Source: Helicobacteraceae bacterium
Lineage (GTDB): Bacteria > Campylobacterota > Campylobacteria > Campylobacterales > Sulfurimonadaceae
Direction of reading: 5' to 3'
Assembly (NCBI GenBank): GCA_027023805.1
Contig: JALVUF010000061.1
Location: forward strand, 1 to 64,000
Length of the DNA stretch: 64,000 nucleotides
Numbering within the stretch: the stretch's first letter is position 1; the number at the start of each line of letters is the position of its first letter. The notes beneath the pieces are model-generated. The model saw only the letters and a program-made list of their open reading frames with translations, was not told the DNA's origin and did not search any database. Positions 21,335-23,438 of the stretch are shown here, piece after piece. Made by a program: the position numbers and the translations under genes.

Positions 21335-22492
21335 ATGAAAGTCATATATATAACCGGGTCAATATTAGTAATTTTTTTAATTATATTTGCCTTAATGTAC
21401 AAAACAAGCAAAAACACAAGAACTATCTCTGTCTTGATGTCTCAAAACAGTATAAAATATTATCAAAAGAAACATAACGCGCACAAAGACGGAAACACTC
21501 CACTCATAACAGCGATACTAAGCAACAATGCTTCTCGCTGCAAAGCTTTAATATCAACAAAAACCAATATCAATACTCCAAACAATCAAGGCAATACTCC
21601 GCTTCATATTGCAGCAAGACTAGGCTACGCAAAACTAGCTCTTATGCTGATTAAAAACGGTGCCGATATTAACGCCACAAACAATCAAGGTAACACTCCG
21701 CTTATCAGTGCTGTCATAGCAGATAACTTAAATCTTGTAAAACTTTTTCAAAAAAAGGGTGCAAGCATAAATATAAAAAACAGTAACGGTGACACACCGC
21801 TTATTTGTGCAATCAAACATGGAAATATAGATATTGCAAAATATTTTCTTAGTAATACCAAATATCAATATATCAACAGTTATCACAGAGATGGCAACAC
21901 TCTCCTTAGCATTGCGGTATCAAACGACCAGCCGGCTATGGTAGATTTTTTGATATCGCATGGCGCATTGGTGAACAGAGCAAATAATTTTAGAATATCG
22001 CCGTTATATATTGCCGCAAAAAAGGGATATGCAAATATCGTTAAAATACTATTAAGACATGGCGGAGATATGCAATACAAAAACAATCACGGTGACACAG
22101 CGTTAAATACCGCCGCATATCACGGACACTATAACGTAGTAAAGATTTTAATTTTTCACGGGGCAAATATACATACAAAAGACAAAGATGGAGATACGCC
22201 GCTAAATAATGCAGCATATTATGGGTATAAAAAAATTGTTAATTTTTTACTATCAAGAGGAGCGCATGTAAACACATCAGATAATTTTGGCAACACTCCG
22301 CTTATAAATGCAGTATATTTTGACCACTATGCAATCATAAAATCTCTTGTTTTTCACCATGCCAATGTGATGCAAAAAAACAATTACAACAAAACCCCTC
22401 TAATCTACGCCATAGATAAAGGATATACAAAAATTGCCAAATTTTTAAAGCTGCATGGAGCTTCGTGTAAAGCACAGCCTTTGATACATTAA
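21335..22492 (+). CDS. Membrane-anchored ankyrin-repeat protein
   Basis: 385 residues. An N-terminal signal anchor (YITGSILVIFLIIFALMYK, about residues 4-22) is followed, from about residue 51 to the end, by roughly ten ankyrin repeats of 33 residues. Each has the G-x-TPL-x-x-A pattern (for example NNQGNTPLHIAARLGYAKLA). The repeats should face the periplasm and mediate protein binding; the partner is unknown. The long, regular, similar repeats suggest growth by internal duplication. It is convergent with serB, and the two share a hairpin across both stop codons. Confidence 0.9.
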   Translation: MKVIYITGSILVIFLIIFALMYKTSKNTRTISVLMSQNSIKYYQKKHNAHKDGNTPLITAILSNNASRCKALISTKTNINTPNNQGNTPLHIAARLGYAKLALMLIKNGADINATNNQGNTPLISAVIADNLNLVKLFQKKGASINIKNSNGDTPLICAIKHGNIDIAKYFLSNTKYQYINSYHRDGNTLLSIAVSNDQPAMVDFLISHGALVNRANNFRISPLYIAAKKGYANIVKILLRHGGDMQYKNNHGDTALNTAAYHGHYNVVKILIFHGANIHTKDKDGDTPLNNAAYYGYKKIVNFLLSRGAHVNTSDNFGNTPLINAVYFDHYAIIKSLVFHHANVMQKNNYNKTPLIYAIDKGYTKIAKFLKLHGASCKAQPLIH

Positions 22493-23117: not shown

Positions 23118-23138
23118 AATTTATGCTCACTTTAGGTT

Positions 23139-23408
23139 ATAATACCAAACCCAGCTAAAGAGTAGGTATTTAAATAAAAAATAAGCTTTTAGATGCAAGA
23201 CAGGCTATCGCAGGCGCTACTAGTAGCTCTAAGATAGTCTAACGAAGCAGATGAAGGCTTATCGTTTACCCAAAGGGCGAACATATTGCAACATATTACC
23301 GCGTTAAAAGAGTTTGAAGCTACCAGTAGCGTCTGCACTCTTTTGCCTTGTGCCATTGCCGCAATATGTTCGTTTAAATTCCTACTCTTTAGCTGGGTTT
23401 GGTATAAT
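23139..23408. mobile_element. MITE-like inverted-repeat element between serB and metF
   Basis: Terminal inverted repeats at 23142-23174 and 23373-23405 match over 33 bp with one mismatch, beginning ATACCAAACCCAGC. The 5-bp sequence ATAAT flanks the core on both sides (23139-23143 and 23404-23408), as a target duplication would. Inside lie a perfect 12-bp inverted repeat (23278-23289 with 23361-23372, CGAACATATTGC) and an imperfect one (23210-23245 with 23301-23336, about 26 of 36 matching). It encodes no transposase. It fills an otherwise unusually large gap. A structured RNA or attenuator is the main alternative, and copy number elsewhere cannot be seen here. Confidence 0.55.
23403..23408 (+). 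promoter_or_regulatory. Candidate metF -10 box at the edge of the inverted-repeat element
   Basis: TATAAT in GGTATAATTG, formed at the junction of the right terminal repeat and the flank, 30 bases before the metF TTG. A second candidate, TATACT, is at 23417-23422. The mirror-image end reads GGTATTATAACC towards serB. Confidence 0.4.
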
Positions 23409-23438
23409 TGCGTAATTATACTCTTTTTAGGAATAGAT

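Follow-up and report, generated by a model that had tools for sequence, protein, structure and literature searches.

The miniature inverted-repeat transposable elements (MITEs) of bacteria are usually viewed as deletion leftovers of a single insertion sequence (IS), their cores being of no consequence. Several described systems come close to the element analyzed here, two of them from pneumococcus and Neisseria. The repeat unit of pneumococcus (RUP) is 107 bp long, has 9-bp terminal inverted repeats (TIRs) and inserts at TA; no other signature of structure or function was reported for it, and its mobilization in trans by the IS630 transposase of IS630-Spn1 has been proposed (PMC2229807). The Correia elements (NEMIS) of Neisseria have TIRs of ~24 bp with TA termini and lie mostly upstream of genes, and outward promoters have been demonstrated for some of them (PMC10969869, PMC2229807). 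A review of MITEs in prokaryotes from 2024 makes no mention in its text of Campylobacter, Helicobacter or the epsilon group (PMC10969869).

Our subject is a 262-bp element between serB and metF in a 64,000-nt stretch of DNA from a Helicobacteraceae bacterium (hereafter, the window). Compared by anatomy alone, it is like RUP in being nonautonomous, in the IS630-like character of its ends and in its AT target, but unlike RUP in its size, its 32-bp TIRs, its TWA duplication and its two conserved hairpin arms. By description, and with no homology claimed, it shares with the Correia elements the character of a MITE; those, however, measure about 105–155 bp and are described from Neisseria only. The ERIC/IRU elements of enterobacteria, again compared by description, are likewise palindromic and intergenic (127 bp), conserved in their fold and ending in TA, but differ in their 7-bp TIRs, their size and the taxa that carry them. 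The CIR repeats of Caulobacter and Brucella share an RNA fold in which a linker joins two long arms, conserved from one genus to the other, but have no TIR or established target duplication, whereas the arms of the window element are enclosed by terminal repeats. Against Rfam, the best that the window yielded was a chance-level match below threshold (13.2 bits, compared with 35.6), and 14 other loci yielded nothing. MITEs as such are a known kind of element; as far as tested in the open-licence literature, there is no description of a folded core that is conserved while its ends are of several kinds. Judging from sequence comparisons, we read the element, with a probability of roughly 0.85, as a nonautonomous transposon (MITE) of type T1 within a Campylobacterota-wide family of ~260–275 bp, with a putative IS630-type mover.

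Boundaries, copies and unoccupied sites

Comparison of copies and of unoccupied sites places the element, TACC...GGTA in its canonical orientation (+), at 23143–23404. Its TIRs, delimited by inverted-arm and copy comparison, occupy 23143–23174 (+) and 23373–23404 (−), the right one with a single mismatch to the left; the inverted arms as a whole, 23132–23174 and 23373–23415, are 88% complementary over 43 nt. The earlier note had proposed a MITE-like element of 260 bp with 33-bp repeats and one mismatch: the kind of element, the repeats and the mismatch stand, but the element is 262 bp long and the TIR proper 32 bp. Its description of the core as noncoding and free of a transposase agrees with a comparison of coding potential between copies, in which no common reading frame was found. 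The junctions read GGTTATAA-[TACC...GGTA]-TAATTGCG, and the orthologous, element-free site in the sister contig WFMO01000144 (L057) reads GGTTATAATTGCG, leaving TAA at 23140–23142 and at 23405–23407 as the target-site duplication. The same 3-bp pattern (TWA) was seen in 19 of 20 T1 elements, against 9.5 with mispaired flanks. The ATAAT formerly taken for the target duplication is this TAA extended by the terminal T/A of the element, because unoccupied sites and intact copies show a duplication of three bases.

The genome holds one further copy at 99% identity (contig C43), two at 75% and 76% (C7 and C10), one truncated where its contig stops, and numerous solo ends and short TIR–TIR palindromes; full-length cores number six, two of them with another TIR type. 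For three copies (window, C43 and C10), orthologous sites free of the element exist in the sister genome, collapsing by 3 bp. That of C10 is exact and clean (TTTTGTCC-TTA-TATGC, in G002), and that of C43 has a few substitutions beside the site. The window site in L057 is not pristine: within the serB–metF gap (L057 837–880), ~10 bp from the insertion point, lies a second, separate T1 end remnant, TTA|TACCAAACCCAACTAAAGAGTAGG, and the same promoter was therefore hit twice in sister lineages. The sequence is thus multicopy, and a sister genome lacks it at serB–metF, so that neither uniqueness nor conservation everywhere at this place applies; together with the TIRs and the 3-bp TWA duplication, this bears out the MITE reading. 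The earlier note overlooked that the duplication is one of 3 bp, that two hairpin arms are conserved, and that the family extends across the phylum with varied terminal repeats.

A folded core with several kinds of ends

Between the TIRs, the window element consists of a hairpin arm 1 (23175–23268, +; CAAGRC ... GCTACTAGTAGC ... TAACGAAG), a central CCCAAAGGG mini-hairpin (23269–23277), whose C–G pairs are nearly invariant in 150 aligned matches, and a hairpin arm 2 (23278–23372, −), an inverted homologue of arm 1 at 58% identity; the arms were delimited by a consensus fold with compensatory changes and by comparison with each other. The fold of the 286-nt stretch has an energy of −118 kcal/mol, where shuffled versions average −66 (z −11.5; 0 of 200 shuffles). 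Thirteen T1 elements could be aligned over their whole length, and from this alignment, built without structure, RNAalifold derived 105 pairs: the TIR stem, the two long arms and a CCC/GGG mini-hairpin. Compensatory double changes affect 49 of the 105, and 96% of cells are paired in this same alignment from which the structure was derived, against 35–46% with slid partners and far above shuffled controls.

A covariance model of the 198-nt core, searched in 397 Campylobacterota genomes, gave nearly always full-length matches in 33 of them, from 14 of 68 genera and seven families. Element size stays near 260–275 bp; among the matches listed, about 30 places are in the genome G407 and about 20 in G076. 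Searches of plasmid, phage and viral collections found no relatives. Another abundant palindromic repeat, GCAACTAACCGTTACGCAAAAAGCGTAACG..., apparently unrelated, occurs in G333 (about 35 places) and G267.

The terminal repeats around the cores fall into six or more recurrent types, besides some seen once: T1, TACCA(A/T); T2, AAGTNN; T3, ACTGACCTTACGCA; T4, TTACCGCACCAA; T5, AGACTTCTTGC; and T6, GGGCACCTCTAA. Applied to all six types, comparison of true with mispaired flanks allowed a duplication length to be assigned for three of them: for T1 (3 bp, TWA), for T5 (3 bp, ANT-like; 7 of 13, 1.8 expected, the examples read being AAT or ATT) and for T6 (4 bp; 14 of 17, 1.0 expected, most of the tested copies coming from G407). 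In that complete genome, at least seven of the T6 copies L472–L486 (G407:C1) have nearly identical model scores, 4-bp duplications and different sites; the T6 copies there suggest recent amplification, no partner IS being seen. On the core tree, elements of like type group together (16 changes, with a minimum of 12 and 51 when shuffled), and the ends therefore changed along lineages, not freely; rampant end swapping among close relatives is ruled out by this clustering. Core-less TIR–TIR palindromes of about 40–60 bp recur for T1, T4 and T5 (G000:C65:10371, C27:25210–25259 and C70:19125; G407:C1:1844674; G542:C7:19535), as if the core were often deleted and a terminator-like hairpin left.

Between types, core identity falls to 38–45%. 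Across 39 representatives, 93% of paired cells are still standard pairs, against 36–45% in slid controls, a figure that leans towards structure as the alignment was fitted to the covariance model; all four Watson–Crick types are seen in 51 of 73 pairs. The unpaired motifs CAAGGC opposite AACGCAG and GCAGG opposite TTCAA are among the most conserved positions (37 effective sequences), and full-length cores measure ~195–207 nt across families. The fold and the conserved unpaired motifs argue for selection on the core. Since related cores occur with other ends, it is probably selection on the fold, as extruded DNA or as RNA, that keeps the hairpin core, not the transposase. A consistent RNA strand was looked for in T1 by G–U versus A–C mismatches and rejected (arm 1, 40 to 2; arm 2, 21 to 23).

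The same covariation could arise without selection if template switching in replication corrected one arm of an imperfect palindrome from the other. The free change of the stems, with every Watson–Crick type at so many pairs, fits such a process, and the terminal repeats covary likewise. It should, however, erase internal mismatches, yet the two pairs of opposed motifs stay mismatched and highly conserved, and it would have to account for full-length cores that hold their narrow size range across families; we regard this explanation as unlikely, though of the alternatives it is the one to be taken most seriously. Given the number of end types and the differing lengths of the duplications, it appears that a single folded core, itself conserved, travels with ends that belong to different transposases. 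A further step, which we take tentatively and with rather more hesitation than conviction, is that the core is a cassette conserved independently of its mover, repeatedly rearmed with at least six end types and kept by selection.

A candidate mover

A search with the TIR across the family met pairs spaced 260–263 bp in several genera and also sites where T1-like ends run into an IS630-type gene; the search proposed earlier for an insertion sequence with the same ends has thus turned up an IS630-family partner within the family. In G165 and G195, the IS is ~1.12 kb long with two overlapping frames (OrfA/OrfB) and TTA on both sides; its ends are TACCAATCCCCATTAAA in G165 and slightly degenerate in G195. 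The partner at L200/L201 ends in TTA|TACCAATCCCCATTAAA and GGTA|TTA, and the fused OrfA/OrfB protein matches PF13358 (5.9e-26) and NF033545 (183.7 bits). Outer ends and TWA flanks are common to T1 elements and to the IS630-family IS of G165, G195 and G189, the last of which holds IS copies and one T1 element, both with TACCAATCCCCACTAA ends. The window element has TACCAA-CCC in common with the IS, similarity being weak further in, and the MITE that comes closest, in G155, matches the IS of G189 over 18 bp. The window's own genome, assembled in 73 contigs, yielded no intact IS630 copy with T1 ends; it holds a C-terminal IS relic with a T1-like end (G000:C62). Among IS630-profile matches in 30 element-bearing genomes, none had T1 or T3–T6 ends except a T1-type remnant in G102, the T2 motif being too short to scan; around T4 and T5 ends, the genomes rich in them yielded only elements, half elements and ~55-bp palindromes, and no IS.

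The usual target duplication of IS630 elements is TA and not TWA. The classical TA duplication of an IS630-type MITE was not seen here: T1 duplicates TWA, and the IS630-type partner is also TTA-flanked. Some IS5 groups (IS1031-like) target TNA, and a transposase of that family could have moved T1, the IS630 likeness of the ends being convergent. The 3-bp TWA duplication would fit TNA-target IS5 groups better than classical IS630, and T5 shows 3-bp duplications as well. Two IS630-family IS, however, themselves carry T1-like ends with TTA on either flank, and no IS5-type IS was among those seen with T1 ends in a profile search that covered IS630; we consider an IS5-family mover improbable. From ends and target, the full-length IS630-family IS of relatives is the likely mover of the window element. 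Its transposase would bind the TACC...GGTA ends in trans, excise the element and insert it at a TWA, frequently within a promoter.

The divergent promoter and the meaning of the family

The window element sits between serB (−) and metF (+), a divergent pair, in their shared control region. Adjoining serB is a gene for a 385-aa ankyrin-repeat-like protein (21335–22492), conserved in the sister contig. Fifteen T1 copies have resolvable neighbors (for the window, the order of serB and metF was used); 11 of them occupy gaps between divergent genes, and no convergent gap holds one. Against a rough baseline of one third, from 18 gaps of the window, the binomial estimate is ~0.002, and the excess is unlikely to be due to chance; T4 and T5 copies do not show the preference. 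Since the ends are GGTA and the target TWA, every junction would read TATWA behind TGG, a −10-like sequence pointing outward on each side. At this locus, the candidate extended −10-like motifs formed by element end and target are TGGTATAAT (23400–23408, +), towards metF, and TGGTATTAT (23139–23147, −), towards serB. An insertion between divergent genes may in this way leave both transcribed; the idea amounts to a 9-base match, and a consensus promoter scan gave no full sigma-70 match at the element junctions.

In about 48 of 80 named contigs, serB has a metF homologue upstream, and a family member at serB is absent in nearly all of the 80 named relatives. Two members lie just upstream of serB elsewhere: L084 2695–2965, in a Sulfurimonas MAG, with T5-like terminal repeats, and L109 168–444, in a Helicobacteraceae MAG, with ATTACTCCATTGGT. 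The family may have targeted the serB promoter repeatedly. These two members and the strong conserved fold could also be taken for signs that the serB/metF promoter contains a regulatory RNA, or an intergenic structure fixed in place, and not a mobile element. Their terminal repeats differ from those in the window, and they are therefore separate insertions; copies adjoin many different genes, and the collapse by 3 bp in the sister genome refutes a fixed structure as the sole explanation, which leaves this account very improbable. Least credible of all is a REPIN-like element moved by a RAYT (Y1) transposase, suggested by two homologous hairpins in inverted orientation, since the elements have 3-bp target duplications and long terminal repeats that match each other, and Y1/REP systems are not known to make such duplications.

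In the transposon family as we read it, cores with as little as about 40% of their sequence in common keep the same fold, and both the ends and the length of the duplication vary. Whether a mobile core can persist beyond its transposase, and of what use its fold is to the element or the host, can thereby be put to a direct test. The Campylobacterota also gain a family of mobile, promoter-landing elements.
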